DNA of 64,000 nucleotides. It comes from Chelydra serpentina. Its lineage: Eukaryota; Chordata; Testudines; Chelydridae. The DNA lies in the NCBI GenBank assembly GCA_037349315.1, contig JBAIAC010000020.1, positions 2,294,001-2,358,000 of the forward strand, in the 5' to 3' direction. Shown here piece by piece: positions 3,944 through 59,779 of the stretch (the first letter of the stretch is position 1; each line of letters begins with the position of its first letter). The position numbers and the translations under genes were made by a program. The notes under the pieces were generated by a model that ran no database searches, was not told where the DNA came from, and worked only from the letters and a program-made list of their open reading frames with translations.

Positions 3944-3964
3944 CGTTTTCACGCTGGACTTGGT
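3944..3964 (-). CDS. 21-nt heptad exon, type A
   Basis: Flanked on the minus strand by an acceptor (cttttacag) and a donor (gtaagtta). Phase 1 reading gives Q-V-Q-R-E-N between the split codons. This is the most 3' exon found. It pairs with the type B exon about 1.0 kb upstream in gene order at 4968. Confidence 0.7.
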
Positions 3965-4967
3965 CTGTAAAAGAATAAACTTGATCAAGATTTGCATTTT
4001 GTCTTTGTTATTGAAAATTAGGTTCTCATTAGTATTCTTAACTTCTGGAATAGCAAAAATTGGGATTTGGAAGAACTTCCATTGGATTAGATGGGCTTCG
4101 AATCAGCCCCAAAGTTTCTCAAAACTGTCCAATGTATTTTGGAAAGACCATTTTTGATATTGAGACTGGAAGAACGAATCAGTATTTTTTTTTTAAATGT
4201 CATAGAAGCAGCCTTACTTGGAGCTTATCACATGCTGCAAAAAATTGTTTCATGGTCAAGCCAATGGCACACTTTTGTGACTGGCGGGAGGAAGGGAATT
4301 ATTCAGGAAACGGATGGAAAAACTTTCTCAGACAGTTGTCAATTTGAGTGGAAGTGCTGAAAAGGCAACTTTGATTTACAGATTATCTGCTGCTAGAGAG
4401 TGGTTGAAAAAGAAAAGTTGAAATAACACATTCAGTGTTATTCTCTAAATGAGGCAGAGAATGTCATTTGTTTTTTTAACTTAAGGATCTCCCAAATTAT
4501 CAGACACATCATAGCAATAGAAAACTTTGTTTTATTTCTTGCCAGAAAAACAAATTGAGAGTTAAACCTGATTGCATTTAATATTGTACAATGGGATTCA
4601 GATATGAAGATTTGTCTGCTCAATCTCAGTTCTATGCAGTCTCACCGTAAGCTGTCTCTCTCCTCTGCCTGATAAAAAGATTACAATAAATCATTTTACA
4701 CTTTTCCAGTGCCTTCCATAGCTTGGTTGCAAAGGAATGAAACACATTTGAAGTAACTACATATTTGCCCTATTGTGTAAACCAGTCATCACAGTAGTCC
4801 CCCAGTAAATAACGGTCAATCTGTCCTGTTCCAGGTGGGGGAACCTCCTGGACTTCCCTTTATGCACAAATGATCAGATCTCTCATTATCACCCTCTTAA
4901 AGAAATTCACTAAGAAGGTAATACTTGACCATCCTCCTCCAAACCCTAGAAATCAGAGCAAACTTAC

Positions 4968-4988
4968 TGTTTTCCACCTGGAGCCGGT
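4968..4988 (-). CDS. 21-nt heptad exon, type B
   Basis: Acceptor is a poly-T tract ending in cag; donor is gtaagttt. Phase 1 reading gives R-L-Q-V-E-N. It is nearly identical to the exons at 6953 and 16306, and each has a type A exon about 1.0-1.4 kb to its left. Confidence 0.7.
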
Positions 4989-5848
4989 CTGAAAAAAAAT
5001 CACAATATTGTCAATAAATGCACTTTCTTTTCATATTTGGGATCCAGTCCTGTCCCACTGACATCAGTGAGACTCCTGCCATTGATTTCCCTGAGAGAAG
5101 GAACAGGCTCAAAGTAACCAACTATTCTCACTTTTTATATTATCATCTGGCCAAACTGACACCATTCCAGCATCCAACACAGCTACCAAACCTCTTTGAT
5201 CTTCCCCCAATGATAAATGCCCAATCCCCACTGATACCCATAGGCGGAACATATCCAGATTAACATGGGAGAAATGCACTCAAACCAACTCAGAAACACT
5301 CAGAATCCCACTTTTGCCAGTACTAGGTGATTCACATGCAAAAGTCTCTCCCAAACACTAGAAAAGCTCCTTATCCCTACGCAATTTAAGAAACTCTCCC
5401 CCCACCCCATGTTGCCCAAATAAACCATTAATGGTATGACTACCAATAAGGCAAATTATTAAAGAAAAAGTTAAGTAATTTATGAATTTATAAATGTATG
5501 CATTTATAAATCAAGTATATTAAGTACAAGACAGCTTTGGGTTGCATCCTTAAAATATTTATTTGGTTCTTATTAAGGTAGAAGTGGGGATATGAACGCA
5601 CATTTTATGTTACTAAAATCTGAGAAAATTTTGTATATGCCCAACTATCTTCAAAGGGACTGTTTATGTGGGGAAGGATAACTCAAAGTTTGCAGATTTA
5701 CACACAAACAGCACAGTATCTTTTCTTAAATTCTGCTTGCACAATGGATCATTTGAGGGCTTTTATTAGGACTTAGAAACATAGGATGCACAGCTGAGTT
5801 AACAAGAAAAATCTCAATGCACCTGCTTAGAAATCGGAGCAAACTCAC

Positions 5849-5869
5849 CGTTTTCATGCTGGAGTTGTT
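5849..5869 (-). CDS. 21-nt heptad exon, type A
   Basis: Acceptor cttttgcag, donor gtgagttt. Phase 1 reading gives Q-L-Q-H-E-N. It differs from the exon at 14902 by one base, and the surrounding introns are clearly duplicated. Confidence 0.72.
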
Positions 5870-6375
5870 CTGCAAAAGAAAATAATTAATCAAGATTTGC
5901 ATATTTTTTGTTATTGAAAATTAGGTTCTCAATACTATTAAGTATGTCAACTTCTGGAATAGCAAGAATTACCTACATTCAGTGAATAAATTAGGCCCTG
6001 TGAGATTATACCTTGGATTTGATGGGCTTTGAATCAGCCCCAAAGTTTCTCAAAACAGTCCCTTGTATTTTGGAAAGACCTTTTTTGCTTTTGAGAATGG
6101 ATGAACAAATGAGTAGATTTTTAAAAAGTGTCTCAGAATAGAAGCAGCCTTACTCAGATCCTATAATATGCTAAATTAAGATGGTGTACAGCCAGGCCCA
6201 TGGCACACATCTGTGACGGAAGGACAAAGGACATTATTCAGAAAATAGAAGGAAAAACTTTCTCGCAGACAGTTGTTGACTTGAATGGAAGTGCTGAAGA
6301 GGCAACTATGATTTATAGATTATCTGAGGGAGAGTCAGTGAAAAAGAAATATTGAAATAGCCCATTCAGAGTTCT

Positions 6376-6420
6376 TAGAATCATAGAATCTCAGGGTTGG
6401 AAGGGACCTCAGGACGTCAT
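6376..6420 (-). repeat. Very short CR1 3' end
   Basis: About 45 bp of the CR1 terminus (catagaat-type tail, then 'ggttggaagggacctcagga') in minus orientation, in the intron between the exons at 5849 and 6953. The paralogous intron at 4440 lacks it, so it arrived after the duplication. Confidence 0.8.
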
Positions 6421-6952
6421 TCTTTTCTAAATGAAACAGAATTTAATTTGTTTTTAACTAAAGGATCTCCTAAATTACCAGATGCATCAAGGAACAGAAA
6501 TCTTTCTGCTTTCTGTTTTGCTTGAAAAAGAAACCGAGTGTTAAATGAGATTGCATTAGATATTGTACAGTGGGAGTCAGATGTGAAGTTTTGCCTACTT
6601 AATCTCAGTTTTAATGCAGTCTCGTCGTAAATATCTTTTTCCTTTACTTGAGAAGAAGAGTAACAAAAAAAATCAATGTACACTTTTTCAGTGCCATAAG
6701 TATCTTGGGTGCAAAGGAATGACACACATTTGAGTAACTACATATTTTGTCCTCTTGTGTAAACCAGTCATCTCAAAGATCCCCAAGGAAATAATGCTCA
6801 ATCTGTCCTGTCCCAGGAGGGAGAACCCCCTCAACTCCCCTTCATGGACAACTGAGAAGATCTTTCATCACCAGCCGCTTAAAGAAATTCAACAAGAGGG
6901 CAACATTTGACACCCCCCTCCCCCGCAACCCTACAAATCAGAGCAAACTTAC

Positions 6953-6973
6953 GGCTTTCCACCTGGAGCTGTC
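6953..6973 (-). CDS. 21-nt heptad exon, type B
   Basis: Acceptor gtttttcag, donor gtaagttt. Phase 1 reading gives Q-L-Q-V-E-S. Final base is C rather than A, so the split codon with the next exon differs from the other type B copies. Confidence 0.7.
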
Positions 6974-7056
6974 CTGAAAAACAAAACAAACCAATATTGT
7001 CAATAAATGCACTCTCTTTTCATACGGGGGACCCAGTCCTGCTCCTTGACATCAGT

Positions 7057-7970: not shown

Positions 7971-8121
7971 AAGTGTGACGCTCTGTACCTCCATGTTCAT
8001 ATTTATAAAATGATTGTGTGATATCCAATGCAAAGTTTGTCATGTTGGATGTCTTCGGAAGGCTCATGATTCACTGAGCATGGTTGTTACAGTGATGTTA
8101 TAGTCATTGTTACAGTAATCA
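7971..8121. repeat. Possible LTR-type fragment
   Basis: The segment starts TGTGACGCTCTGTACC and is AT-rich. It resembles the 5' part of LTRs that begin TGTGAC, such as those at 31490 and 40674, but no partner LTR, primer site or frame is present. I cannot place it in a family. Confidence 0.25.
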
Positions 8122-8385: not shown

Positions 8386-8399
8386 AAGCAGTCACAACT

Positions 8400-10854
8400 A
8401 GGAGGGTGGTGAAGCCACTTCCTGGAGCAATGCGGGGGCAGTGGAAGGCAGGCAGGCAGCCTGCCCTGCCTCCGGTGCACGTCGGGGCGGCCCCAGGCCC
8501 CCGAACCCCTCCTGTAGCCGAAGCCCCTGCCCTGAGCCCCCTGCCACACCCCTCCTGCACCCTGACCCCCTTCCCTGAATCTCCTGCCGTACCCTGCACC
8601 CTGACCCCCTGCCCTAACCCCCCTGCTGAACCCCTCCCACTCCTGCACCCGACCCCCTGCCCTGAGTCCCCTGCCACACCCCGCACCCCTCCTGCACCCT
8701 GACCCTCTGCCCTGACCACCCTGCAGCACCCCGCACCACTCCTGCACCCTGACCCCCTTCCCTGAGTCCCCGCCACACCCCGCACCCCAACCCCCTGCCC
8801 TGACCCCCCTGCTGAACCCCTCACCCCTCCTGCACCTTGACCCACTGCCCTGAGTCCCCTGCTGCATCCCACACCCCTCCTGCACCCCAACCCCCTGCGC
8901 TGAGCCCCCTGCCACACCCCGCACCCCTCCTGCACCCCGACCCCCTGCCCTGACCACCCTGCTGCACCCCGCACCACTCCTGCACCCCGACCCCCTTCCC
9001 TGAGTCCCCTGCCACACCCTGCACCCCGACCCCCTGCCCTGACGCCCCTGCTGAACCCCTCACCCCTCCTGCACCATGACCCCCTGCTCAGAGTCCCCTG
9101 CCGCACCCTGCACCCCTCCTGCACCCTGACCGCCCTGCCCTGAGCCCCCTGCTGCATCCTGCACCCCTCCTGCACCCGACCCTCTCCCCTGATCCTCCAT
9201 GCCGCACCCTGACCCCCTGCCCTGACCCCCAAGCTGAACCATGCACCCCTCCTGCACCCCGACCCCCTACCCTGAGTCCGCTGCCACACCCTGCACCCTC
9301 CTGCACCCTGACCCCCTTCCCTGAGCCCCCTGACACACCCCGCACCCCTCCTGCACCCCGACCCCCTGCCCTGAGCCCCCTGCCACACCCCGCACCCCTC
9401 CTGCACCCTGACCCCCTTCCCTGAGTCCCCTGCCACACCCTGCACCCCGACCCCCTGCCCTGACGCCCCTGCTGAACCCCTCACCCCTCCTGCACCCTGA
9501 CCCCCTGCTCAGAGTCCCCTGCCGCACCCTGCACCCCTCCTGCACCCTGACCGCCCTGCCCTGAGCCCCCTGCTGCATCCTGCACCCCTCCTGCACCCGA
9601 CCCTCTCCCCTGATCCTCCATGCCGCACCCTGACCCCCTGCCCTGACCCCCAAGCTGAACCATGCACCCCTCCTGCACCCCGACCCCCTGCCCTGAGTCC
9701 GCTGCCGCGCCCTGCACCCTCCTTCACCCTGACCCCCTTCCCTGAGCCCCCTGCCACACCCCGCACCCCTCCTGCACCCCGACCCCCTGCCCTGAGCCCC
9801 CTGCCACACCCCGCACCCCTCCTGCACCCCGACCCCCTGCCCTGAGCCCCCTGCCACACCCCGCACCCCTCCTGCACCCCGACCCTCTGCCCTGACCACC
9901 CTGCCGCACCCCGTACCACTCCTGCACCCTGACCCCCTTCCCTGAGTCCCCTGCCACACCCTGCACCCCAACCCCCTGCCCTGACCCCCCTGCTGAACCC
10001 CTCACCCCTCCTGCACCCTGACCCACTGCCCTGAGTCCCCTGCTGCATCCCGCACCCCTCCTGCATCCCAACCCCCTGCGCTGAGCCCCCTGCCACACCC
10101 CACACCCCTCCTGCACCCCGACCCCCTGCCTTGACCACCCTGCTGCACCCCGCACCACTCCTGCACCCCAACCCCCTTCCCTGAGTCCCCTGCCACACCC
10201 TGCACCCCGACCCCCTGCCCTGACCCCCCTGCCGAACCCCTCACCCCTCCTGCACCCTGACCCCCTGCTCAGAGTCCCCTGCCACACCCCGCACCCCTCC
10301 TGCACCCTGACCCCCTTCCCTGAGCCCCCTGCCGCACCCCTCCTGCATCCCGACCCCCTGCCCTGAGTCCCCTGCTGCATCCTGCACCCCGACCCCCTGC
10401 CCTGACCCCGCTGCCGCACTCCGCACCTCTCCTGTACCTCCACCCCCAACCCTGAGTTCCCTACTGCATCCCGCACCCTTCCTGCACCCTGACCCCCTGC
10501 CCTGAGCCCCCTGCCACACCCTACACCCCGACCCCCTCCTCTGACCCCCCTGCCGCACCCCGCACTCCGACTCCCTGCCACACCTCTCACCCCTCCTGCA
10601 GCCCACACCCTAACTCCCTTCCCTGAGCCCCCACCACACCCCACACACCCCCTGTCCCCCCTGGTGATTTCAGGGAAGGGGTTGGAATGAGGGCAGGAAA
10701 AAGGTGGGAAAAGGCGGGGCAGGGGCGGGGCCTCATGGAAGGGGTGGAGTGGCGGCGGGGCTGAGGGTGTTGGTGGGGAGGTGTCATTAATGCAGCCCTC
10801 GGGCCAATGTAGTAGTCCTCATGTGGCCCTTGTGGTCAGTTGAATTTGAGACCC
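8400..10854 (-). mobile_element. hAT-type non-autonomous element swollen by a minisatellite
   Basis: The right end, read on the minus strand, begins CAGGGGTCTCAAATTCAA and continues colinearly with the hAT copy at 12571 ('gggccacatgagga', 'ttggcccgagggc', 'ccttccatgagg'). The inner part of that copy has short repeats of 'gcaggaggggtgcgggg' type; here they have grown into about 2.1 kb of tandem repeat. The left end keeps the 'aggcagggcaggc' motif but loses the terminal inverted repeat, so the copy is truncated near 8400. The right flank 'gacttgat' has no left partner. Confidence 0.75.
8500..10640. repeat. GC-rich minisatellite with higher-order repeats
   Basis: Short units of the form 'cctgcaccctgaccccctgc' and 'cctgagccccctgccacacc' alternate to give a basic period near 50 bp. 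Larger blocks are also repeated: the text at about 9042-9300 recurs about 421 bp later, and that at about 8784 recurs near 9965. Because there are few stops in this biased sequence, long shadow frames of Gly/Arg/Cys/Val appear on the minus strand. They are not genes. Confidence 0.9.
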
Positions 10855-10855
10855 C

Positions 10856-12500: not shown

Positions 12501-12521
12501 CACATTTCTCTCGCAGTTCCT
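12501..12521 (-). CDS. 21-nt heptad exon, type D variant
   Basis: Acceptor catttgcag, donor gtaagttt. Phase 1 reading gives E-L-R-E-K-C. The left flank 'agagatcaatacaaacttac' is shared by other type D exons. The usual first Gln is Glu here. Confidence 0.68.
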
Positions 12522-13278: not shown

Positions 13279-13286
13279 CTCTAGAT

Positions 13287-14901: not shown

Positions 14902-14922
14902 CATTTTCATGCTGGAGTTGTT
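14902..14922 (-). CDS. 21-nt heptad exon, type A
   Basis: Acceptor cttttgcag, donor gtaagttt. Phase 1 reading gives Q-L-Q-H-E-N, identical in protein to the exon at 5849. The following intron is interrupted by the hAT at 14999. Confidence 0.72.
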
Positions 14923-15350: not shown

Positions 15351-16305
15351 GACTATGTCAATACTTAACTCTGGAATAGCAAGAATTACCTACATGCAGT
15401 GAACAAAGACTATCCATTGCATTTGGTGGGCTTTAAATTAACCCCAAAGTTTCTCAAAACAGTCCCTTGTATTTTGGAAAGACCACTTTTTATATTGAAA
15501 CTGGAAGAACAAATGAATAGAGGTTGTTGTTGTTTTCAATGTCACAGAATAGAAGCAGTCTTACTCAGAGCCTAGCATATGCTGAATTAAGATTTTGTAC
15601 AGACAAGACAAGGACACACTTTTGTGGTCAGCAGAATAAAGAGCATCATTAAGGAAGAACTGAAAAATTTTCTCACAGACAGTTGTCGATTTGAGTGTAA
15701 GTACTAAAAAGGCAACTTTGACTTACGGATTATTGGCTGGAGAATTGCTGAAAAAGAAAATTTGAAAAAACTCATTCACAATTTTTCTCCAAATGATGCA
15801 GTGAATGTAACTTTTTAAATAAAGGATCTTCTAAATTATCAGATACATAATAGCATCAAAAACTTTTCTGCTTTTTTTCCTGCCAGAAAAACAAATTGAG
15901 GATGAAGTGAGATTGTATTTACTATTGTACAATGGGAGTCGTATGTGAAGTTTTGTCTGCTTAATCTCACATTCAATGCACTCTCATTGTAAACTTCCTC
16001 TCACCTCTGGGTGATAAGAAGAGTGCAAAAAAACAATTTACATTTTCCTAGTGCCTTCTGTAGCTTGGTTGCAAAGGAATTACATGCATTATAGTAACTA
16101 CACGTTTTGCCTTGTTGGGTAAACTTTCTCAATGGTCCCCAAGGAAATAATGCTCAGTCTGTTCTGTCTCAGGTGAGGGAACCTCCTTGATTCTCCTTCA
16201 TGTATAACTGAGAATCTCTCTCATTATGACCCTTTTAAAGAAATTAACCAATAGGGCAATATTTGACCTTCTGCTTCAATACCGTAGAAATCAGAGCAAA
16301 CTTAC

Positions 16306-16326
16306 TGTTTTCCACCTGGAGCCAGC
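16306..16326 (-). CDS. 21-nt heptad exon, type B
   Basis: Acceptor is a T-rich tract ending in ccag; donor gtaagttt. Phase 1 reading gives W-L-Q-V-E-N; Trp replaces the usual Arg or Gln because of one base change (TGG). Confidence 0.7.
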
Positions 16327-17058: not shown

Positions 17059-19389
17059 TCATAGAATCATAGAATCTCAGGGTTGGAAGGGACCTCAGGA
17101 GGTCATCTAGTCCAACCCCCTGCTCAAAGCAGGACCAACCCCAACTAGATCATCCCAGCCAGGGCTTTGTCAAGCCTGACCTTAAAAACCTCCAAGGAAG
17201 GAGACTCCACCACCTCCCTAGGTAACCCATTCCAGTGCTTCACCACCCTACTAGTGAAAAAGTTTTTCCTAATATCCAACCTAAACCTCCCCCTCTGCAA
17301 CTTGAGACCATTACTCCTTGTTCTGTCATCTTCTACCACTGAGAACAGTCTAGATCCATCCTCTTTGGAACCCCCTTTTAGGTAGTTGAAAGCAGCTATC
17401 AAATCCCCCCTCACTCTTCTCTTCTGCAGGCTAAACAATCTCAGTTCCCTCAGCCTCTCCTCATAAGTCATGTGCTCCAGCCCCCTAATCATTTTTGTTG
17501 CCCTCCGTTGGACTCTTTCCAATTTATCCACATCCTTCTTGTAGTGTGGGGCCCAAAACTGGACACAGTACTCCAAATGAGGCCTCACCAGTGCCGAATA
17601 GAGGGGAATAATCACGTCCCTCGATCTGCTGGAAATGCCCCTACTTATACAGCCCAAAATGCCGTTAGCCTTCTTGGCAACAAGGGCACACTGTTGACTC
17701 ATATTCAGCTTTTCGTCCACTGTAACCCCTAGGTCCTTTTCTGCAGAACTGCTGCCCAGCCATTCAGTCCCTAGTCTGTAGCAGTGCATGGGATTCTTCC
17801 GTCCTAAGTGCAGGACTCTGCACTTGTCCTTGTTGAACCTCATCAGATTTCTTTTGGCCCAATCCTCTAATTTGTCTAGGTCCCTCTGTATCCTATCCCT
17901 ACCCTCCAGCGTATCAACCACTCCTCCCAGTTTAGTGTCATCTGCAAACTTGCTAAGGGTGCAGTCCACACCATTCTCCAGGTCGTTGATGAAGATATTG
18001 AACAAAACCGGCCCCAGCACCGACCCTTGGGGCACTCCACTTGATACCGGCTGCCAACTAGACATGGAGCCATTGATCACTACCCGTTGAGCCTGACCAT
18101 CTAGCCAGTTTTCTATCCACCTTACCGTCCATTCATCCAGCCCATACTTCTTTAACTTGCTGGCAAGAACGCTGTGCGAGACTGTATCAAAAGCTTTGCT
18201 AAAGTCAAGAAATAGCACATCCACTGCTTTCCCCTCATCCACAGAGCCAGTTATCTCATCATAGAAGGCAATTAGGTTAGTCAGGCATGACTTGCCCTTG
18301 GTGAATCCATGCTGACTGTTTCTGATCACTTTCCCCTCCTTTAAGTGGTTCAAAATTGATTCCTTGAGGACCTGTTCCATGATTTTTCCAGGGATTGAGG
18401 TGAGACTGACTGGCCTGTAGTTCCCCGGATCTTCCTTCTTCCCTTTTTTAAAGATGGGCACTACATTCGCTTTTTTCCAGTCATCTGGGACCTCCCCCGA
18501 TTGCCATGATTTGTCAAAGACAATGGCCAATGGCTCTGCAATCACATCGGCCAACTCCTTTAGCACCCTCGGATGCAGTGCATCCGGCCCCATGGACTTG
18601 TGTTCGTCCAGCTTTTCTAAATAGTCCCGAACTACTTCTTTCTCCACAGAGGGCTGGTCACCTCCTCCCCATACCGTGCTGCGGAGTGCAGACGCCTGGG
18701 AGCTGCCCTTGTCTGTGAAGACAGAGGCAAAAAAAGCATTGAGTACACTAGCTTTCTCCACATCCTCTGTCACAAGGTTCCCTCCCTCATTCAGCAAGGG
18801 GCCCACACGTTCCTTGACTTTCTTCTTGTTGCTAACATACCTGAAGAAACCCTTCTTGTTACTCCTAACATCTCCAGCTAGCTGCAACTCCAAGTGTGAT
18901 TTGGCCTTCCTAATTTCACTCCTGCATGCCTGAACAATACTTTTATACTCCTCCCTGGTCATTTGTCCAATCTTCCACTTCTTGTAAGCTGCTTTTTTGT
19001 GTTTAAGACGAGCAAGGATTTCACTGTTAAGCCAAGCTGGTCGCCTGCCATATTTACTTTTCTTTCTACACATCGGGATGGTTTGTTCCTGCAACCTCAA
19101 TAAGGTTTCTTTAAAATACAGCCAGCTTTCCTCGACTCCTTTCCCCCTCATGTTATTCTCCCAGGGGACCTTGCCCATCAGTTCCCTGAGGGAGTCAAAG
19201 TCTGCTTTTCTGAAGTCCAGGCTCTGTATTCTACTGTTCTCCTTTCTTCCTTGTGTCAGGATCCTGAACTCGACCATCTCATGGTCACTGCCTCCCAGGT
19301 TCCCATCCACTATTGCTTCCTCTACTATTTCTTCCCTGTTTGTGAGCAGCAGGTCAAGAAGAGCTTTTCCCCTAGTTGGTTCCTCCTTC
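17059..19389 (-). mobile_element. CR1 LINE, 5'-truncated
   Basis: The 3' end is the 'catagaatcatagaatctc' tail at 17059 and the body reads leftward-to-3' on the minus strand. The 5' truncation lies in the endonuclease at 'accaactaggggaaaag'. It inserted into a DIRS element whose parts remain at 16699-17058 and 19390-19830. Confidence 0.92.
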
Positions 19390-19493
19390 TGATGGCTCTC
19401 TCCTAAACACTTCAAACAAGAAGTGTGAGGATCCCTTCTGGGCATACACTTGCTGCAGGTTTCACAGGTTTTGAAGCCTGGAGACTTAGGCAT
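17145..19493 (-). CDS. Chimeric frame: DIRS gag start fused to CR1 ORF2
   Basis: This 782-codon open frame starts at the DIRS gag ATG (19493). About 38 residues with C-x2-C and C-x2-C pairs come from DIRS (start M-P-K-S-P-G-F-K). At about [10 protein letters not shown] it passes in frame into CR1 ORF2: end of the endonuclease with G-G-S-D-H-E, then a full reverse transcriptase with [27 protein letters not shown] and the catalytic F-A-D-D near residue 515, then the C-terminal region ending L-D-K-A-L-A-G-M-I. The RT is intact but the endonuclease lacks its N-terminal two-thirds, so it cannot retrotranspose alone. The fusion looks accidental; whether it is expressed is unknown. Confidence 0.85.
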
Positions 19494-19830
19494 GTCTGGG
19501 TGTCAAGAAAGCGTGGGAGGGGAACCACCCCCCCCCAAGGGAACTTAATCTAACTGGAACACTACTAACTACTACTAATTAACACTATAAGAACTATGAA
19601 TAGACTGCTGCTGTGCTTGGCGGAACAAGAGCACAGGGAAGTTCCAGCTAAGTGTAACTGGCAGTAAGAAGGAACTCATGGGGTGGTGGGTTGGCAGGAC
19701 TTTTTATTGGGCGCCATGAAGGGGGCACCCTGGCCAACTCTATGGCTAGCTGCTAAGGGAAAAATCTTCCAGTGACCATGCATGTGCGCGCGCACACACC
19801 TGATTGGAACTGACATGAACAAGCACTCAA
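19390..19830 (-). mobile_element. DIRS 5' terminal region
   Basis: It holds the gag start and the terminal inverted repeat. The text 'ggcagtaagaaggaactca', 'tttttattgggcgcc' and 'gtgcgcgcgcacacacctg' aligns with the right terminus of the DIRS at 51870-52054. It ends at 'aacaagcactc' next to host intron. Confidence 0.75.
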
Positions 19831-24250: not shown

Positions 24251-24850
24251 TACACACTCCCAACAACCCAACAAACGAATAATGAGCAATGTAACCTAAG
24301 TACCAACTGTAATAAACTTCTCAAATCTCCATGCAGTTCACCACTGCTGCTTTTTATTACTTCAAAAAGAATACATGCATTTCTAGCCAATACCCACTCT
24401 CCCTTCAGGAGTAGAAGCTACACAACTTGGTGCTAACTTACCCCTTTGCCTCTGAAGCTGGTCTGTAAAAGAACAAAAAACATTAGAGTAATTACATAAT
24501 TTTTGCCCTTTTTTCAAACATCTTTTAAATTGCTTTCTTAATACCCTTCTGATTATTAAGAACAAAGTAGGCCTGATGGACAGAAGCACCGTACTGAATT
24601 TGACAGTGACTCGCTAGGTCCTTCTGGACAATTCACTGTTGCTGGACATTCAAATACTTACAGATCCTAAATTCCTTCTCAATTCTGCACATGGCTAGGA
24701 GGCTGCTCGATGGATAATACAATACATTTTCCCTTCTATAAACATCTGAATACAAATGCAGAAAAAATATGTTGGAGTTTTCCAAAAATCCTAGGGGATA
24801 ATTTACGCAAATGTAACTAAACTGACATCACTGTAGTTACAGAAGAGATT
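24251..24850. repeat. Duplicated unit around a type D exon (copy 1)
   Basis: This segment is a diverged copy of 28697-29335. Both contain 'aatgtaacctaagtacca', 'gtaataaacttctcaaatct', the type D exon, 'catcttttaaattgctttct' and 'gactcgctaggtccttctgg'. Confidence 0.8.
24442..24462 (-). CDS. 21-nt heptad exon, type D
   Basis: Acceptor cttttacag, donor gtaagtta. Phase 1 reading gives Q-L-Q-R-Q-R. It differs from the exon at 28892 by one base within a duplicated unit. Confidence 0.7.
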
Positions 24851-25219: not shown

Positions 25220-25337
<118 letters not shown>

Positions 25338-25520: not shown

Positions 25521-25541
25521 TGTAGTCATTGCGGGATTGGT
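25521..25541 (-). pseudogene. 21-nt heptad exon, type C, donor lost
   Basis: Acceptor ctattgcag is present and phase 1 reading gives Q-S-R-N-D-Y, but the donor starts AT instead of GT. The paralogue at 55295 is the same exon with an intact gtaagttt donor. Confidence 0.65.
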
Positions 25542-26563: not shown

Positions 26564-26584
26564 TTCGTTCCCTATGCATTTGAT
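26564..26584 (-). CDS. 21-nt heptad exon, type D
   Basis: Acceptor ccattgcag, donor gtactt (GT kept, the usual A-A-G weakened to A-C-T). Phase 1 reading gives Q-M-H-R-E-R. The duplicate exon at 55947 has a stronger donor. Confidence 0.6.
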
Positions 26585-28696: not shown

Positions 28697-29335
28697 TGAC
28701 AGACACTTCCAACAACCCCCCAAATGAATAATAAGCAATGTAACCTAAGTACCAGCTGTAATAAACTTCTCAAATCTACATGCAGTTCATCACTGCTGCC
28801 CTTGGTTACTTCACAAATAATACAGGCATTTCTAGCCAATACCCATTCTCCCCTCAAGAATAGAAGGCTACACAACTTGGTGCTAACTTACCCATTTGCC
28901 TCTGAAGCTGGTCTGTAAAAGAACAAAACACATTTGAGTAATTATATAATTTTTGCCCTTTTTTCAAACATCTTTTAAATTGCTTTCTTAACACCCTTCT
29001 GATTATTAAGAATGAAGTAGGATTGACGGACAGAAGCACCGTACTGAATTTGACAATGACTCGCTAGGTCCTTCTGGACAATTCACTGTTGTTGGGCATT
29101 CAAATATATACAGCTTCTAAAAATTCTTTCTAAAATCTGTGGATGGCTAGGAGGCTGTCCAATGGATATGGGCAATATTGCGTATATGACTAATGAAATA
29201 CATTTCCCTTTCTGTAAACACCTGTATAGAAATGCAGGAAAATATATCTTGGAGCTTTTCAAAAATCCTAGGATATAATTTACCCAAGTGTAATTAAACT
29301 GACATCACTGTAGTTAAAAAAGAGATCAATTTAAC
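28697..29335. repeat. Duplicated unit around a type D exon (copy 2)
   Basis: Partner of 24251-24850; see shared phrases there. The duplicates are about nine-tenths alike by eye. Confidence 0.8.
28892..28912 (-). CDS. 21-nt heptad exon, type D
   Basis: Acceptor cttttacag, donor gtaagtta. Phase 1 reading gives Q-L-Q-R-Q-M. Confidence 0.7.
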
Positions 29336-29842: not shown

Positions 29843-29863
29843 CCATTTCCCCCCATAGTTGGG
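29843..29863 (-). CDS. 21-nt heptad exon, type D
   Basis: Acceptor ctttgcag, donor gtaagttt. Phase 1 reading gives Q-L-W-G-E-M. The Gypsy element at 29890 inserted only 26 bp beyond its acceptor side, so the polypyrimidine tract and branch region of this exon may be altered. Confidence 0.62.
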
Positions 29864-32622: not shown

Positions 32623-32642
32623 GTGGCGTAGTCGAGCAGGAT
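32623..32642 (+). other. Primer binding site of nested element
   Basis: GTGGCGTAGTCGAGCAGGAT follows the LTR end immediately; TGG at the second base fits complementarity to a tRNA CCA end. The tRNA was not identified. Confidence 0.6.
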
Positions 32643-32914
32643 CTGTGCACAGCTGATTGCTTTGACGTACTGGTAGTGATTTTAAGTGAGTTTTAAGTGT
32701 GGTGGCTGGAAAACAGACAAAGTGGTTACTGGTTTGTTATTTTCTGTTTGCTTATTTCGGGTAAGGGAAGTAGGGACAGAAAAGGAAATCAAATAAGTAA
32801 GAGTGAAGATCAGGGAAGCTGGGAAAGTCCCTTAACTGAAGAGCTCCTGATCTGAGTGCAGTCCAGTTTCAGTGAACTGCAGAGGGGCGTGGCCCAGCAC
32901 CAGACAGCAATAAG

Positions 32915-35737
32915 ATGTCTGTAAGCGAGGCCACGGTAAAACTGGACCTTGCCAGACTCGAAATAACAGAGAAAGAAAACGAACATCGGAGACGAATCGA
33001 ATTACGTACGCTGGAAATTAGTGCAGAGACAGAAGCCCACAAGAGAGCTGAGGAGGCCCACAAGAGAGCTATGGAAGCAGAAAGAATCAGGGAGGAGGCG
33101 GCCCACAAGAGAGCTATGGAAGCAGAGGAGCTGGCCCACAAGAGAGCTATGGAAGCAGAAAGAATCAGGGAGGAGGCGGCCCACAAGAGAGCTATGGAAG
33201 CAGAGGAGGCGGCCCACAAGAGAGCTATGGAGGCCCAGAAGCATGAACTGGCTGTTGCAGAGTTGAAGAGTCGCAACCCTTCAGCGTCCGGCTCCGCTTC
33301 CCCAAAAATCCCCAAATGGGAGCGTCTATGCCCCCAGTATGATGAATCCAAGGATATAGCCGAATATTTTATCACCTTCGAGAGACTGTGCTCCCTCCAT
33401 GCGATCCCTGAAGATCAAAAAATGACCACCTTGATAGCCAAATTGACTGGCAGAGCTCTGGACATATTCAATAAGATGCCCATTGGGGATGCCTCCAATT
33501 ATGGTAAATTTAAGGAACTGGTTTTGAAACAGTTTCAGGTTACACCTGAAACCTACAGGGTTAAATTCAGGAGTCTTAAGAGGGGAGATGGGTTAAGTTA
33601 CCTGGCTTATGCAAATGAAATGACAGTTCTGGTAGACAAGTGGGTGAGGGGAAAAGACATTACAAGCTTTGAAGGGATGTGTGATTTGGTTGCTCAGGAA
33701 CAATTCCTGAATATGTGCAGTGATGATGTAAAACAGTACTTGTGGGACAAACAGGTAAAAGCCGTTAGTGAATTAGCTGGGTTTGCAGACTCTTATGAGC
33801 AGGCGCAAGCTGCAATTAAGCATAAACCACTGGCAGAGGGGTACAGGGTCGAAGGAAAACAGAGTCACCGTGTTACCCCTGGGAAGAAGGAGGCTGGGCG
33901 CTCACCTCCCCATTCTCCTAGTACTCGTCCCAAATTCCCTGTACAATCAGAGGAGCCCAGGAGGTGCTATCAATGTAAGTCCACCGAGCACCTGAGAGAT
34001 AAGTGTCCCCTGCTGAGTGAAAACAGGCATCAAGCGGCCCATGAAGCTGCTGCCTCTTTCCACACAGGGTTTGTGAAGTTGACTTCTACACCACCAAGCA
34101 GTGAGCATGTGCATGCGGTTAGACTGAATGGGAAGGTAATCACTGGGTTGAGAGATACAGGTGCTGAAATTTCTATAGTCAGGAGGGACCTGATCCAAGA
34201 GAAGGATTGGTTGCCGGGTAAAGTGGCAGAATTGGAGCTGGTGGGTGGCTACAAAGTCATTGCACCTCTGGCAAAAGTACACATGCAAACGGAAAACTTG
34301 CAGGCTAAGCTAACTGTGGCAACAGTGTCACACAATTTTGCACCGTTTCTACTGGGAAATGATTTCTTTGCTGTGGCAGAATCTGTCCCAGGGCTGGGTG
34401 GCAGCAAGCAGGAACCTGGTGCTGAAAACCCCAGAGGGGGGGGTGAAGTCACAGGGACTGCAGCTGTGGCCAGTTCCTGTCCTGTAATCATCTCCCCGGG
34501 GGAGGGGAATGTTCTACCTCATAGCAAGGGGGGAATTTTCCGGGCCACTGAAGGGTCTATATTAGCTTGCAGCTGTGAGCCCACAGCTGGACCAGGGTCA
34601 CCTTCTCTTCAGGGGGACACGGGAGTGTCTGGCCCAGAGGGAGGCCCAGGAAGGGAAGGAGAGGGGGGGCCGGAGAGCCCGCCCACCTTTTGGCAGGAGG
34701 ATCTTGCCCAGGAGGAGGGTGAAAAGTCTGCATTTCAGATGCCAGACCCCTCTCCTGTGGATCAGGTTAGAAGGGGAAGCTGGGGGTCAGACCTCCCGGA
34801 CGGGGGAGTCCATCCAGCTGACCTGTTGGGGACAGATACTGGGGTGTCCAAGAAAGAGGTTGTTCTTGCTACACGGGTAGGAGGCAAACCTCTCTCTTCA
34901 AAGCAGAAGGGAGCGAGTCTCTGCATGGGTGAAGCCACACAAGGGGATGGGAACCAGCCCAGAGAAATTCCAGAGGGAAGGGCCGAGGGCAGGCCGGGTT
35001 GCAGTACACCCTTTCCTTGCCAGAGCCTCAAACGCATGCCTGATTCAGGAGCCTGCTCCAAAGAGGCAGAAGAATCTGCATCAGAGTGCCTACCAGGGTA
35101 CACAGACGGGCGGGTAATCCTGTGTCTTTCCCTACTTCATCTGTGGGTTATAACAAAGGAGTTAACACTGAGGGTCAACCCTTTCAAGATGGGGAACATA
35201 CCTGATTGGTGGGAAAAACTGTTGTACATGCTTGGGATGGTGACCTCACGGTCGTACAAACATGTTACCTGTCGGCCTATATCGGGTAACCGGCTGGAAG
35301 CTTGGCACAACAGCAAAAGCATAACAGGCCCAGGCTGCTGTGTGAAAGGGGAAACTGAGGCACGCCGCCTCATGGCACTGAGAGCTAAATGCCGAGGTTC
35401 CTACGCCTTAACAGGTATTGCTATCTGTATCCTGTTAGCAATATTACACCCCAACCCATTTTCAGGCGCCCGGGGACCAGGAACCTCGCATTTTGCTAAA
35501 ACCATTACGAACGACACCATGTGGGGTGCCAGTACTGAAAAGGGGTGTGACCAAAGACAAACAGGGGCTTTATGTGTACTGCCTCCGCCATGGACAGTGT
35601 CCAAGTCTCTGGCAGTAAGTTCAGGAGGAGGGTGTGACGGTGTTCCCCATAAAACTTTATGGGGAGATGCTTATAAATGTATATATGTAACTAAAATATG
35701 TTTTATGCTACATGTGCCATGTAACATATCTCTGTGA
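32915..35737 (+). CDS. Gag-protease frame of nested Gypsy element, SCAN-like capsid
   Basis: This is a 940-codon open frame. Residues 1-40 are charged. About 40-112 are six imperfect repeats around A-H-K-R-A-M-E-A-E, a predicted coiled coil. About 130-310 resemble the retroviral/SCAN-type capsid, with F-R-S-L-K-R, then V-A-Q-E-Q-F-L-N and the A-x-F-A-D-S-Y-E-Q-A end. Near 350 is a zinc knuckle C-Y-Q-C-x4-H-x4-C. Near 414 is the protease-type D-T-G-A-E-I-S-I-V. After about 500 the sequence is Gly/Pro/Glu-rich. Beyond residue 740 it is probably former non-coding sequence; the frame ends 105 bases inside the 3' LTR. The SCAN domain of vertebrate transcription factors is known to derive from Gmr1-like Gypsy gag, so a Gmr1-like origin is a reasonable guess. 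The ATG at 32915 is the first in frame after the primer site. Confidence 0.85.
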   Translation: MSVSEATVKLDLARLEITEKENEHRRRIELRTLEISAETEAHKRAEEAHKRAMEAERIREEAAHKRAMEAEELAHKRAMEAERIREEAAHKRAMEAEEAAHKRAMEAQKHELAVAELKSRNPSASGSASPKIPKWERLCPQYDESKDIAEYFITFERLCSLHAIPEDQKMTTLIAKLTGRALDIFNKMPIGDASNYGKFKELVLKQFQVTPETYRVKFRSLKRGDGLSYLAYANEMTVLVDKWVRGKDITSFEGMCDLVAQEQFLNMCSDDVKQYLWDKQVKAVSELAGFADSYEQAQAAIKHKPLAEGYRVEGKQSHRVTPGKKEAGRSPPHSPSTRPKFPVQSEEPRRCYQCKSTEHLRDKCPLLSENRHQAAHEAAASFHTGFVKLTSTPPSSEHVHAVRLNGKVITGLRDTGAEISIVRRDLIQEKDWLPGKVAELELVGGYKVIAPLAKVHMQTENLQAKLTVATVSHNFAPFLLGNDFFAVAESVPGLGGSKQEPGAENPRGGGEVTGTAAVASSCPVIISPGEGNVLPHSKGGIFRATEGSILACSCEPTAGPGSPSLQGDTGVSGPEGGPGREGEGGPESPPTFWQEDLAQEEGEKSAFQMPDPSPVDQVRRGSWGSDLPDGGVHPADLLGTDTGVSKKEVVLATRVGGKPLSSKQKGASLCMGEATQGDGNQPREIPEGRAEGRPGCSTPFPCQSLKRMPDSGACSKEAEESASECLPGYTDGRVILCLSLLHLWVITKELTLRVNPFKMGNIPDWWEKLLYMLGMVTSRSYKHVTCRPISGNRLEAWHNSKSITGPGCCVKGETEARRLMALRAKCRGSYALTGIAICILLAILHPNPFSGARGPGTSHFAKTITNDTMWGASTEKGCDQRQTGALCVLPPPWTVSKSLAVSSGGGCDGVPHKTLWGDAYKCIYVTKICFMLHVPCNISL

Positions 35738-36765
35738 AAGTTATGACCTACTGAATTTACTCCTCCTGTTTGTATGCATGTGTCATTGTTGTAGTTGGAG
35801 TTATGAAGATTGGTTTTATATTTGCTGGTTTTGTACATAGCCTTTGTAAGTGCATGGGATCATCTTTGGAGCAAAGAATGCCTGTTAAATGCGAGCACTT
35901 GACAGACAAAAGACTTTGCAGACCCCAATCCACATTGGGGCCAGGTCTGGAATGCAACTGGTTAGACTGGTTAGGGCGCATGGGCAGGTGACTTGCCCAT
36001 GTGATCCCAAAACTCCAGGGCAACTGGATCCTACACAGGGAGAGGAAGAGAGGCTATAAAAGCCCTTGCAAGACCCTTCCATTTTGTCTTCAGCTGGCTA
36101 AAGGGAGAGGCTCTCCACCCCCCCAGGGACATTCCTGAGGGGAACTGAACAAAGGACAAAGGGGTGTGAGAATCTGGTGGACTCAGCTGGGCCCAGGCTG
36201 ATTCTACAGCCTGTAAAAAGGAAAATATCCGAATCTGGTGAGGCTTTTATGTGTGTTAACTTTGAATAGACATAGATGTGCGCATTTTATTTTATTTTAT
36301 TAAGTAACTGGCTTTGTTCTGTTTGTCACTTATTGAACTCACTTAAATGCTATTTTCTGTACTTATTAAAATCACTTTTTACTTAAGTTTCCTTGAGTAC
36401 GAGTTAGTGCAAAGGGAGAGCAAACAGGTGTGCATACTTTCTATCTTTGCAATAGAAAGCGAACGATTTATGAGTTTACCCTGTATAAGCTTTATACAGG
36501 GTAAAACGGATTTATTAAGGGTTTGAACCTCCTTGGAGTTGAGCAGCTGGGTGTCAAAGGCAAGAGCGCTTCCAGGGGCCTTACAGGGGTGAGTGGACTT
36601 GGTTCGGACCTGGGTCTGTGTTTGCAGCAGATCAGTGGAATCTGGCTCAAAACAGACAGGATTCGGGAGTCCCAAGCTGGAAAAGGCCTGGAAGCAGGGG
36701 CAGAAGTAGCCTTGGCACACCAGGTGGCAGCACCAAGCAGGTCTCTGTGGCCCCAACCCGTCACA
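35633..36765 (+). repeat. 3' LTR of nested Gypsy element
   Basis: Same sequence as 31490-32622 in all stretches compared, including the TATA box and the A/T-rich 'cgcattttattttatttta' segment. Confidence 0.95.
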
Positions 36766-39335: not shown

Positions 39336-40487
39336 TGTAAGCGGGGGAATAGTCCCGCTATTGTGGGGAACTATCCTCATCTCTGCACTACCCCGGTGAA
39401 ATGGGCTAGCGGAAGGATCTCAGTCCTCGCTCCCACCTCCTTTACCCCAGAGGCCTCCCTGCCCTCCCCTTGCACTCTCCTGTCTGGCAGAGTCCTCGTA
39501 ACCCCAACAAGGCTGGGCCCAGGATTCCTGGGAGGCTCGACCCCCAACCTTGCTGTGGTCACCTAGGTCAGGGGCTAGGGTGTCCCCACTCCGGGGTACT
39601 CTCTCTGAACAGGATGCTTCCCTGACCAACTGATCACTGTATACAATTCAAAGCAAATGCAAATTATTTAATTAACAATTAATTTGTAACAGGAATAAGG
39701 AAAAATGGGAAAGGCTAATGAAAACACATCACCCCGCTCTGTGGCAGGGAACATCTCAACAGTGTCTCTGCAATGTCAGGGCAGTTCAGTCTGTTCCTTT
39801 GTAAATTCCAGGCTCCTTCTCAGGCCCTGGCTGTGCTGCAGGGACGCTGTGGCTTGGATACTTGCTCCGGCGGTGGCCACACGCTCGCAGGCTCTGAGTG
39901 GCAGGACCCTTCTTCCCAGCGTTGCCCCTGCCCTGTTGGGGTTTAGATCCCCCTGCAAGTCTGGCCTGCAGGGCCCCTTGGCTGAGGCGTCTCCCTGTGC
40001 TGGGCCCACTGCCCAGGGTCCCCCTCGCTCTCCCCAGCTGCTCACCGCACCCGGCTCCGGACTGCTCCAGCCTCAGCTCCAGCTCCTCTGCCTCAGCATG
40101 GCTGCTGCTGCTCTGCCTCCAGCTCCCTGGGCTGCTGCCCTGGCTCCTCTGGCTCTGGCTGCTGCAGCTTCTCCCCCAGAGCAGGTCTGTGTCTCTGGGC
40201 TGCACCTCTGCTCCCAGGGCAGGTCTGTGTCTCTGGGCTGCTTTTCTGGCCCCTCCAGATCTGGCCCAGCTCAGCTCAGCTCTGGCTTCTGCCCTCTCCT
40301 CAGCTCGGCCCCACTCACTCTGACTCAGGCAACCTCAGCTCACACGGAGGACGGGATTTACCCCTGACCACCTGACTCCCTGATTCGCCTGCCCGCCCTG
40401 TCAATCAGAGCTGACCTGGAGCATTGGCCTCTCCCCATTGCCCCTGAGAGCTCTGAATGTTAGTAAGGGGATAACAGTCCCCTTACA
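39336..40487 (-). repeat. 5' LTR of the outer Gypsy element
   Basis: 1152 bp, TGTAAG...CTTACA. It differs from the other LTR by several substitutions and indels, so it is older than the nested element. Confidence 0.93.
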
Positions 40488-42955: not shown

Positions 42956-42976
42956 CACAGTCATTTCGGAATTGGA
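42956..42976 (-). CDS. 21-nt heptad exon, type C
   Basis: Acceptor ctgttgcag, donor gtaaattt. Phase 1 reading gives Q-F-R-N-D-C. The flank 'ggactgcaacagattaaat' matches that of the exons at 55295 and 59267. Confidence 0.68.
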
Positions 42977-53535: not shown

Positions 53536-53601
53536 AGCTTCAAAACTTTTCCCTTTCTTGGTAGTTCGAGTAGAAGCCTACAGAAATCAATGTAAACTTA
53601 C

Positions 53602-53622
53602 CCCATTCCCTTTGCAGTTGAT
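53602..53622 (-). CDS. 21-nt heptad exon, type D
   Basis: Acceptor ctttttag, donor gtaagttt. Phase 1 reading gives Q-L-Q-R-E-W. Left flank 'cagaaatcaatgtaaactta' is the type D signature. Confidence 0.7.
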
Positions 53623-53989: not shown

Positions 53990-54010
53990 CCATTTCCAGC
54001 CGTAGTCGGT
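53990..54010 (-). CDS. 21-nt heptad exon, type D
   Basis: Acceptor ctttgcag, donor gtatgttt. Phase 1 reading gives R-L-R-L-E-M. It is only 367 bp from the exon at 53602, the shortest spacing in the array. Confidence 0.68.
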
Positions 54011-55294: not shown

Positions 55295-55315
55295 CATAGT
55301 CATTGCGGGATTGGT
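55295..55315 (-). CDS. 21-nt heptad exon, type C
   Basis: Acceptor ctgttgcag, donor gtaagttt. Phase 1 reading gives Q-S-R-N-D-Y, identical in protein to the donor-less duplicate at 25521. Confidence 0.7.
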
Positions 55316-55946: not shown

Positions 55947-55967
55947 CTCTTTCCCTAAGCATTTGAT
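55947..55967 (-). CDS. 21-nt heptad exon, type D
   Basis: Acceptor ccattgcag, donor gtaagtta. Phase 1 reading gives Q-M-L-R-E-R; the duplicate at 26564 has His for Leu. Confidence 0.7.
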
Positions 55968-56929: not shown

Positions 56930-58487
56930 GATTCATAGATTCTAGGGCTGGAAGGGACCTCGAGAGGTCATCGAGTCCAGCCCCCTGCCCTCATGGCGGG
57001 ACCAATTACTGTCTAGACCATCCCTGATAGACATTTATCTAACCTACTCTTAAATATCTCCAGAGACGGAGATTCCACAACCGCCCTGGGCAGTTTATTC
57101 CAGTGTTTAACCACCCTGACAGTTAGGAACTTTTTCCTAATGTTCAACCTAAACCTCCCTTGCTGCAGTTTAAGCCCATTGCTTCTTGTTCTATCCTCAG
57201 ATGCTAAGATGAACAAGTTTTCTCCCTCCTCCTTATGACACCCTTTTAGATACCTGAAGACTGCTATCATGTCCCCTCTCAGTCTTCTCTTTTCCAAACT
57301 AAACAAACCCAATTCCTTCAGCCTTCCTTCATAGGTCATGTTCTCTAGACCCTTAATCATTCTTGTTGCTCTTCTCTGGACCCTCTCCAATTTCTCCACA
57401 TCTTTCTTGAAATGCGGTGCCCAGAATTGGACACAATACTCCAGTTGAGGCCTAACCAGCGCAGAGTAGAGAGGAAGAATGACTTCTCGTGTCTTGCTCA
57501 CCACACACCTGTTAATGCAGCCCAGAATCATGTTTGCTTTTTTTGCAACAGCATCACACTGTTGACTCATATTTAGCTTGTGGTCCACTATAACCCCTAG
57601 ATCCCTTTCTGCCGTACTCCTTCCTAGACAGTCTCCTCCCATTCTGTATGTGTGAAACTGATTGTTCCTACCTAAGTGGAGCACTTTGCATTTGTCCTTA
57701 TTAAACTTCATCCTGTTTACCTCTGACCATTTCTCCAATTTGTCCAGATCATTTTGAATTAGGACCCTATCCTCCAAAGCAGTTGCAATCCCTCCCAGTT
57801 TGGTATCATCTGCAAACTTAATAAGCGTACTTTCTATGCCAATATCCAAGTCATTGATGAAGATATTGAACAGAGCCGGTCCCAAAACAGACCCTTGCGG
57901 AACCCCACTCGTTATACCTTTCCAGCAGGATTGGGAACCATTTATAACTACTCTCTGAGTACGGTTATCCAGCCAGTTGCGCACCCACCTTATAGTAGCC
58001 CCATCTAAGTTGTATTTCCCTAGTTTATTGATAAGAATATCATGCGAGACCGTGTCAAATGCCTTACTAAAGTCTAGGTATACCACATCCACCGCTTCTC
58101 CCTTATCCACAAGACTCATTATCCTATCAAAGAAAGCTATCAGATTGGTTTGACATGATTTGTTCTTTACAAATCCATGCTGGTTATTCCCTATCACCTT
58201 ACCACCTTCCAAGTGTTTGCAGATGATTTCCTTAATTACTTACTCCATTATTTTCCCGGGCACAGAAGGTAAACTAACTGGTCTGTAGTTTCCTGGGTTG
58301 TTTTTATTTCCCTTTTTATAGAGGGGCACTATATTTGCCCTTTTCCAGTCTTCTGGAATCTCTCCTGTCTCCCATGATTTACCAAAGATAATAGCTAAAG
58401 GCTCAGATACCTGCTCTATTAGGTCCTTGAGTATTCTAGGATGCATTTCATTAGGTCCTGGTGACTTGCAGGCATCTAACTTATGAC
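56930..58487 (-). mobile_element. CR1 LINE inserted in the older CR1
   Basis: The 3' end is 'agattcatagattctaggg' at 56930; the 5' end is truncated in RT near 58487. It carries the frame described at 57013-58446. Confidence 0.88.
57013..58446 (-). pseudogene. CR1 reverse transcriptase, C-terminal two-thirds, one stop
   Basis: Frame 58446-58240 begins in RT ([17 protein letters not shown]) and ends at a single TAA where Gln is expected after I-M-E. The next 399 residues (58212-57013) continue in the same register with [22 protein letters not shown], catalytic F-A-D-D and a complete C-terminus ending C-L-S-G-M-V. Confidence 0.88.
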
Positions 58488-59266
58488 AAAGGAGGTATAT
58501 GAAAGAGGTCTATAAAATCATGAATGGTGTGGAGAAAGAGAAAAGGGAAATGTTATTTACCCCTTCGCATAACACAAGAACAAGGGGTCACCTAATTAAA
58601 TTAATAGGCAGCAGGTTTAAACCAAACAAAAGGAAGTACTTTTCACACAACACACAGTCAACCTCTGGAACTCATTGCTAGGGGATGTTCTGAAGGCCAA
58701 AAGTATAAGTGAATTAAAAAAAATAGATAAGTTCATGGAGGACAGGTCCATCAATGGCCATTAGCCAACATGGTGAACACCCTGTCCTCTGGGTGTCTGT
58801 AAGCCTCTAAATGCCAGAAGCTGGGACTGGATAATAGGGGATGCTAATAAATTGCCATGGTCTTTTCATTCCCTTTGGCACCAGACATTATAGGAAGACA
58901 GGACAGTGGGTTAGATGGACCATTGATCTGACCCAATATGGCCGTTCTTATGTTCTTAATGTTTAAAAAAAAAGACTTTTGCGTCAATTAGGACTAAGTA
59001 AAACCAGTATTTGGTCCAAATAATCCAATGGACTATTCATGTGGGTAAAATGAGCTTTCACCCAACTAAACATTTGCAAAATCTGAGCCCTACAGTGAAA
59101 GGGTTTGGGGGTTTGATTGTTTGTTTTTTAGTGCCTACTACATAGTGGATTATTGAGCAAATAGTGTGGAGAATTGAAATGATAGGAAATACATTTTTTT
59201 AATAAACCAAATAGAAAATGAAAACAAAATCTGAGTGCAACTGCTTAGTAAAGAGGTCAAACTCAC

Positions 59267-59287
59267 CAATCACATTCTGGAACTGGC
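59267..59287 (-). CDS. 21-nt heptad exon, type C
   Basis: Acceptor cttttgcag, donor gtgagttt. Phase 1 reading gives Q-F-Q-N-V-I. This is the best-preserved type C exon and the reference for the decayed copies at 11613 and 19896. Confidence 0.7.
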
Positions 59288-59760
59288 CTGCAAAAGATTA
59301 AATTAGATCAATATACTTAGTGCATGTTAAAATTCACCAATTGTATATTAAACATCTTGAACATCATTAATTAGCTGCCTTCAGTGATGTGCATATGGAC
59401 AAATATTTGGATCCAGTATTTTTCTATCAGTAAATTTGACCAGGATTGTGTTCTCTCTGCTGCTCTCAGTCAGCTTCTTCATTGTTTCTTTCAAGGAAAA
59501 TTAACCTCTTTCACTTGCAATGTAAGAGGTTACTGCTTTTATAGGTTTGTGTAAGAAGTTAAATGAATCAACTTTTGTTCCAATAGATGCCTATTTTTCC
59601 TTGTGTAACTGCACATATTTCACTGCAGTTATTCATGTGTAATGAACGATTTCGAACATGAGCAATTCTCTGAACAACAAGGATAAACCCTTTGCAATTC
59701 CATCATATGTTCCAAGTCCATGCTAGTATGGGAGTCTGCATAAATCAATACAAACTTAAC

Positions 59761-59779
59761 GTTGCCCTGCATAGCTTAT
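59761..59779 (-). pseudogene. 19-nt variant of a heptad exon
   Basis: The acceptor cttttgcag and flank 'gcataaatcaatacaaactt' are typical of type D, but the only donor in place (gttaagtt) leaves 19 nt. Inclusion would shift the frame. An inserted A beside the donor is the likely cause. Confidence 0.5.

Follow-up and report, generated by a model that had tools for sequence, protein, structure and literature searches.

Can a set of 21-nucleotide (21-nt) exons, each encoding one heptad, be assigned to a gene, and if so to which kind of gene? The question is posed by a 64,000-nt stretch of the turtle Chelydra serpentina (contig JBAIAC010000020.1, here C20, positions 2294001-2358000; referred to as the window), in which an initial annotation had described such an array. 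We analysed the window, its surroundings and the genome (2.28 Gb searched), and the results indicate that the array is very probably the cytoplasmic-tail part of one minus-strand turtle butyrophilin-family gene, which occupies ~176 kb of C20 (2,388,276 to 2,211,728 on the minus strand). A coding region of this family, with an architecture like that of chicken BG genes, had been proposed in the initial annotation, and it is borne out by Pfam domains, by collinear turtle homologs and by a tail that is conserved among turtles.

Anatomy and family of the gene

The exons follow one another in the order signal-anchor, immunoglobulin (Ig) V, Ig C, V, C, transmembrane (TM), 32 intact 21-nt heptad exons, a 27-nt exon and a B30.2 exon. 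All of them, including the six coding exons upstream of the array, are open and carry splice signals, and every exon boundary of this collinear series was determined to lie in phase 1. When joined, they give a conceptual type I membrane protein of 897 residues, to which the 32 heptad exons contribute a tail of 224 residues with no stop codon. The 5′ half of the gene was located by aligning turtle homolog proteins back to the genomic DNA, and its signal-anchor, Ig and TM exons align collinearly with the turtle proteins P0121, P0122 and P0126 (P numbers designate predicted proteins of our comparison). The TM exon is 80-84% identical to the TM of P0121 and P0122. At the other end, the 27-nt exon encodes EWRRARNNS and sits before the B30.2 exon, as in turtle B30.2 relatives. 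For the B30.2 exon, a start at an acceptor further upstream and in a different phase was abandoned, the relatives having indicated the likely start.

Both V exons match the Pfam model V-set (36 and 42 bits), both C exons match C2-set_3, the butyrophilin Ig-C model (79 and 55 bits), and the last exon matches PRY (61 bits) and SPRY (89 bits). When compared with solved structures (PDB), the B30.2 domain scored best with BTN3A3/BTN3A1 (~148 bits), and its exon is closest to turtle proteins named ‘butyrophilin subfamily 1 member A1-like’, with a top identity of 89% among the matches listed, from Chelydra serpentina. The gene combines Ig-V with butyrophilin-type Ig-C domains, a single TM exon with heptad exons after it, and a C-terminal PRY-SPRY, as butyrophilins do. 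Its long array of 32 intact phase-1 heptad exons is a feature of BG genes, from which it departs in its V-C-V-C ectodomain (a single Ig-V in BG), in its B30.2 domain (absent in BG) and in its hydrophobic codons (3 and 7, against 4 and 7 in BG). With four Ig domains, 32 heptads and B30.2, it is therefore a butyrophilin with a BG-like tail and not a BG gene, so that the kind of relative named initially was right while BG itself was not. None of 40 MHC_I (major histocompatibility complex class I) matches fell on C20 or on the related contig C44, which measure only 2.8 and 4.3 Mb, and the window contains no Rfam match that reaches gathering scores.

The heptad exons

Both strands of the window were scanned for AG-21nt-GT sites to give a candidate list, and an iterated weight matrix was built from 20 nt upstream, the exon and 8 nt downstream. 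As its 16 seed sites were picked by eye, we report leave-one-out scores. On the minus strand the matrix finds 23 sites above 9 bits, with leave-one-out scores of 16.9-53.3, and on the plus strand none above 3 bits. In 20 first-order Markov sequences of window length, the highest score was 13.0 bits and the second 7.5. In 17 of the 23 sites AG and GT are both kept and the phase-1 frame is open; the other six are decayed. An 18th intact exon (ILQPII) was missed by the matrix; it is present in the AG-21nt-GT list and has counterparts in relatives. The window total is thus 18 intact exons and six decayed copies, all on the minus strand (Table 1). The count of 18 phase-1 exons on one strand agrees with the initial annotation, as do the readings QLQHEN (two exons), RLQVEN, QFRNDC and QLQREW quoted in it; the decayed copies it mentioned exist too, at six instead of four.

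In the span of 3944-59779 given for the array, 59779 is the edge of the decayed first copy, and the array extends beyond the window. Below window coordinate 1 lie 17 further matrix sites and one exon from a wider scan. Over 264 kb around the window, 41 minus-strand sites exceed 10 bits, against none on the plus strand; one, far upstream, was set aside, and the remaining 40 comprise 30 intact and 10 decayed copies. Adding ILQPII and an exon at C20:2244084 gives 32 intact exons across 116 kb, with introns of 367-13,092 nt between them (median 2,216). A 21-nt site at C20:2405954 (16.8 bits), which lies upstream of the signal-anchor exon, was kept out of the gene, as were weak sites of 8-10 bits on either strand.

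Within the heptads, hydrophobic residues occupy position 3 in 97% of exons, position 7 in 44% and position 4 in only 6%, and position 6 is acidic in 72%.

Table 1. Exons and decayed heptad copies, from the 5′ end of the gene. Plain coordinates are those of the window; heptad entries rest on the weight matrix with a check of AG, GT and frame unless another basis is given.
Feature	Position	Strand	Basis or remark
Signal-anchor exon	C20:2388201-2388276	-	weak protein match, E 0.009
V1 exon	C20:2384848-2385183	-	homolog alignment, V-set
C1 exon	C20:2383349-2383633	-	homolog alignment, C2-set_3
V2 exon	C20:2382183-2382608	-	homolog alignment, V-set
C2 exon	C20:2372092-2372367	-	homolog alignment, C2-set_3
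TM exon, 69 nt, phase 1-1, VDFLICLLLFIAVTIDHSFGKCK	C20:2354733-2354801 (60733..60801)	-	homolog alignment; tttcag/.../gtaagt
Decayed copy KLCRAT, donor lost	59759..59779	-	
Heptad exon 1, QFQNVI	59267..59287	-	also first heptad after TM in Mauremys
Heptad exon QMLRER	55947..55967	-	
Heptad exon QSRNDY	55295..55315	-	
Heptad exon RLRLEM	53990..54010	-	
Heptad exon QLQREW	53602..53622	-	
Heptad exon QFRNDC	42956..42976	-	
Heptad exon QLWGEM	29843..29863	-	
Decayed copy K*QRKM, stop codon	29472..29492	-	
Heptad exon QLQRQM	28892..28912	-	
Heptad exon QMHRER	26564..26584	-	pairs with exon at 55947: 18/21 bases, flank identity 0.89
Decayed copy QSRNDY, donor AT	25521..25541	-	
Heptad exon QLQRQR	24442..24462	-	
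Heptad exon WLQVEN	16306..16326	-	
Decayed copy KLQKAL, no AG, no GT	16048..16068	-	
Heptad exon ILQPII	15727..15747	-	AG-21nt-GT scan; TLQPII in Mauremys
Heptad exon QLQHEN	14902..14922	-	
Heptad exon ELREKC	12501..12521	-	identical ELREKC in Mauremys
Heptad exon QLQVES	6953..6973	-	
Decayed copy KILMAL, no AG, no GT	6688..6708	-	
Heptad exon QLQHEN	5849..5869	-	
Heptad exon RLQVEN	4968..4988	-	
Decayed copy KLWKAL, no AG, no GT	4706..4726	-	
Heptad exon QVQREN	3944..3964	-	array goes on below window coordinate 1
B30.2 (PRY-SPRY) exon	C20:2211728-2212254	-	outside window; Pfam PRY and SPRY

Conservation of the tail among turtles

A protein search with the joined tail (30 exons and the 27-nt exon) returned eight matches, five of them from turtles and three from salmonid C-type lectins, which we took as coiled-coil resemblance. 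The best match, Mauremys mutica LOC123350389 (P0121), is 57% identical across the whole tail, and a search with the Mauremys tail returned 20 proteins, query included, all from turtles. The homolog set also contains ‘SKINT5-like’ (P0135, 914 residues) and LOC112547760 (P0134) of Pelodiscus sinensis, P0133 of Natator, P0137 of Caretta, P0136 and P0142 of Lepidochelys, and a Mauremys protein named ‘BTNL2’ (P0130). Thirteen homologs were fetched for a test of the tail, from which P0125 (near-identical to P0126) and P0140 (a 72-residue tail) were omitted; seven further matches from the Mauremys-tail search stayed outside this comparison. For all 11 tails, from 8 genera and with identities of 46-79%, the alignment score exceeded those of all 200 heptad-order shuffles, although the 11 are not independent, P0121/P0130 and P0134/P0135 each being two models of one species. 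Turtles with the tail span both suborders (Emydura, Pleurodira; Pelodiscus, Cryptodira).

Six predicted proteins from four genera (P0133-P0137 and P0142) unite Ig domains, a tail of 168-249 residues (24-36 heptad lengths) and a full B30.2 domain in one chain. The tail of P0137 contains one non-heptad-like stretch, and the Mauremys models P0121 and P0130 differ by one heptad. The expectation that gene finders will miss such an array was mistaken, since the array is present in gene predictions from Mauremys, Pelodiscus, Natator and Caretta, among others. That it may be undescribed is uncontradicted for print, with no account of a long-tailed turtle butyrophilin in the open-licence literature among the matches listed, and does not extend to databases: gene models of the same kind are already there for other turtles, under differing names, none of them characterised among those seen. 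Two butyrophilin-type proteins of Platysternon megacephalum, P0122 and P0022, are named ‘class I histocompatibility antigen’ and ‘coagulation factor X’, an apparent misannotation.

Distribution in the genome and change of the array

A search of the genome with a pattern of 35 places, allowing up to three mismatches and skipping very common words, recovers 21 of the 32 intact exons at this locus. It returned 52 matches, compared to one for the reversed-pattern control, with 22 on C20, 23 on C44, 4 on C46 and 3 on C217. Every match lies upstream of an SPRY exon, on the same strand and within ~138 kb of it. At the sensitivity used, nothing indicates a dispersed repeat; the initial annotation had asked for a check of such repeats outside BTN/BG-type loci, and none was found. 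The seven matches on C46 and C217 are close to other B30.2 exons, which points to additional genes with heptads.

All 20 stretches of C44 that were fetched match C20 at 97.7-100% identity, and C44 therefore looks like a second haplotype. The heptad exon at C20:2285333-2285353 has the donor AT, and its counterpart at C44:3806225-3806259 has GT, an apparent splice-site polymorphism between haplotypes. The flanking introns show local block duplications, because of which the flanks of several copies are alike. Four blocks have in common a QLQHEN type, a dead KLQKAL type and an RLQVEN type; GT is missing in all four KLQKAL-type copies, and one RLQVEN-type copy has a dead donor on C20.

Alternative readings of the locus

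Several observations weigh against the assignment to a butyrophilin-family gene with an intact heptad tail. The splicing of the heptad exons is predicted from their sequence, and their open internal codons are so partly by construction, because ‘intact’ meant AG, GT and no stop; the split codons of the joined tail, which were not part of the selection criteria, are open too. As three of the eight tail matches are salmonid lectins, part of such scores may reflect heptad composition alone. Mauremys and Platysternon have longer tail exons (KKQEHSEEE...) for which no counterpart was found at the locus, both Mauremys models fetched (P0121 and P0130) stop just inside B30.2, and P0121 and P0134 have no second V. 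When the V1-C1 pair was compared with solved structures, CD276 came first and BTN1A1 next, placing the butyrophilins behind CD276. The AlphaFold model of Pelodiscus P0135 has long helices over the tail; with a mean pLDDT (predicted local distance difference test) of 46 and a pTM (predicted template modelling score) of 0.24 it is poor, and the helical tail is thus weak support. Ten of the 42 known heptad copies are decayed. Between haplotypes, 3 of 545 exon bases and 55 of 11,846 intron bases mismatch (P = 0.74), which gives no exon constraint, with too few differences for power. The paralog comparison is mixed: over six pairs each, the QLQHEN type keeps 108 of 126 bases and exceeds its flanks (0.76), whereas the RLQVEN type keeps 98 of 126, no better than its flanks (0.78). 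The pairs are not independent, and constraint is at most suggestive.

The last three of these results, together with an additional Ig-C exon that carries a stop codon, would suit a decaying or non-functional copy whose exons are remnants and which yields no full-length protein in this animal. Against this, the coding exons are all open, carry splice signals and share one phase, from the six upstream of the array through the 32 heptad exons to the 27-nt and B30.2 exons, and the order of the tail is kept in other turtles; moreover, the dead KLQKAL type keeps 93 of 126 bases over six pairs, compared to 108 in the QLQHEN type, with similar flanks (0.78 and 0.76), the pairs again not being independent. 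We consider decay very unlikely. Incomplete homologs point in another direction, namely that two or more neighbouring genes have been merged here, such as an Ig-tail gene that lacks B30.2 and a separate tail-B30.2 gene: P0121, P0122, P0125, P0126, P0130 and P0140 have Ig and tail without a full B30.2, and P0123 has tail and B30.2 without Ig. The six proteins that join all three parts in one chain argue against a merger, and an Ig-motif scan of open frames from the array to B30.2 found no convincing Ig exon, TM exons not having been searched for there. We regard a merger as very unlikely. That the 21-nt blocks belong to a dispersed repeat with splice-like signals by chance is scarcely credible at the sensitivity used. 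The similar flanks of several copies, which stem from local block duplication, would fit such a repeat, but all 52 genome matches, on four contigs, are at B30.2 loci, and the heptads keep their order from one turtle to another. A single butyrophilin-family gene remains the reading that we prefer.

Possible role of the tail

Two chains might pair via the heptad tail as a coiled coil, which at a rise of 0.1485 nm per residue would be ~33 nm long. Such a coil would set chain pairing and keep the B30.2 domains distant from the membrane, and it may couple sensing or binding by B30.2 to the ectodomain, by analogy with the short juxtamembrane coil of human BTN3A. The juxtamembrane regions of BTN3A, modelled as coiled coils, are reported to control pairing and phosphoantigen sensing (PMC10665462). 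Since each heptad exon is a frame-neutral cassette, exon skipping, decay or block duplication would shift tail length by 7-residue steps with the frame intact, and tail length could therefore vary between transcripts, alleles and species. The AT/GT donor difference between C20 and C44 and the two Mauremys models one heptad apart support a variable tail.

A broader proposal, which we put forward tentatively and consider rather doubtful as a whole, is that turtles keep a receptor class new to print, in which a single gene encodes a V-C-V-C ectodomain, a coiled-coil tail as long as those of BG and a B30.2 domain. This class may be similar to the ancestor of chicken BG, which would have lost Ig-C and B30.2, and of mammalian butyrophilins, which would have lost most heptads; tail length would serve as a tunable ruler, adjusted through splice-site polymorphism and the use of cassette exons. 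Binding of orphan B30.2 domains to BG tails is described as unclear (PMC8813856), and both this cooperation and the relation of BG to butyrophilins become testable with a turtle gene that has both parts in one chain. The turtle tails, which differ naturally in coil length, also lend themselves to studies of how a cytoplasmic coil passes signals between B30.2 and ectodomain. For annotation, the locus can be entered as one ~176 kb gene, whose relatives carry several unrelated database names.

Other features of the region

A decayed additional Ig-C exon with a stop codon lies at C20:2377314-2377670 (-), and the Chelonoidis model P0140 has a similar domain that contains no stop. Outside the gene, an Ig-like open frame (V-set, 41 bits) at C20:2196580-2196903 (+) and an Ig-C-like match (25% identical) at C20:2420816-2421115 (-) probably belong to neighbouring genes.

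In the window, two 300-nt stretches that are 100% identical and 4,143 nt apart (31490-35932) flank an open frame of 953 residues (32876-35737, +) with what we take to be a zinc-knuckle-like motif; the whole looks like a recent long terminal repeat retroelement. It is nested inside a second similar pair (30026-30946 and 39464-40385), with 97-98% identity in the two 300-nt pieces reported. An open frame of 785 residues (17145-19502, -), which lies in an intron of the gene, presumably represents a CR1-type reverse transcriptase. A GC-rich tandem repeat at 8524-10579 has a period of ~50 nt, with 37 units at 8593-10390 and higher-order periods of up to 421 nt, and a (TA)n run at 25223-25335 comprises 56.5 perfect units.

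Comparison with known systems

The closest relatives are the turtle predicted proteins, which have the same domain order and a collinear heptad tail that is 47-79% identical to that of the gene described here. They differ in tail length (168-249 residues), in the second V (absent from P0121 and P0134) and in the completeness of B30.2 (Mauremys). Chicken BG genes, known here by published description, are alike in their phase-1 21-nt heptad array: they are reported to have many 21-nt exons, each encoding one heptad with its first codon split after the first base, and 13-36 heptad exons per gene in the B12 haplotype (PMC5938342, PMC4046983). The same kind of description gives BG one Ig-V and a TM, with neither Ig-C nor B30.2 (PMC4046983, PMC8813856), and places the hydrophobic codons 4th and last in each exon (PMC5938342), compared to positions 3 and 7 in the turtle gene.

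Mammalian BTN1A1, BTN2A and BTN3A share V and C2 Ig domains, TM, heptads and B30.2 with the turtle gene. Their tails, as far as the cited texts describe them, have only a few heptads and B30.2 is present (PMC5938342, PMC4046983, PMC8813856), whereas the turtle gene has 32 heptads and two V-C pairs. Squamate butyrophilins consist of V, C, TM, a variable number of heptads and B30.2; the description cited has one V and one C and gives no array of turtle length (PMC12841164). The four-domain V-C-V-C ectodomain is shared with the V-C2-V-C2 molecules of BTNL2 type, as these are outlined in the cited source (PMC8813856), and to this ectodomain the turtle gene adds a very long heptad tail.

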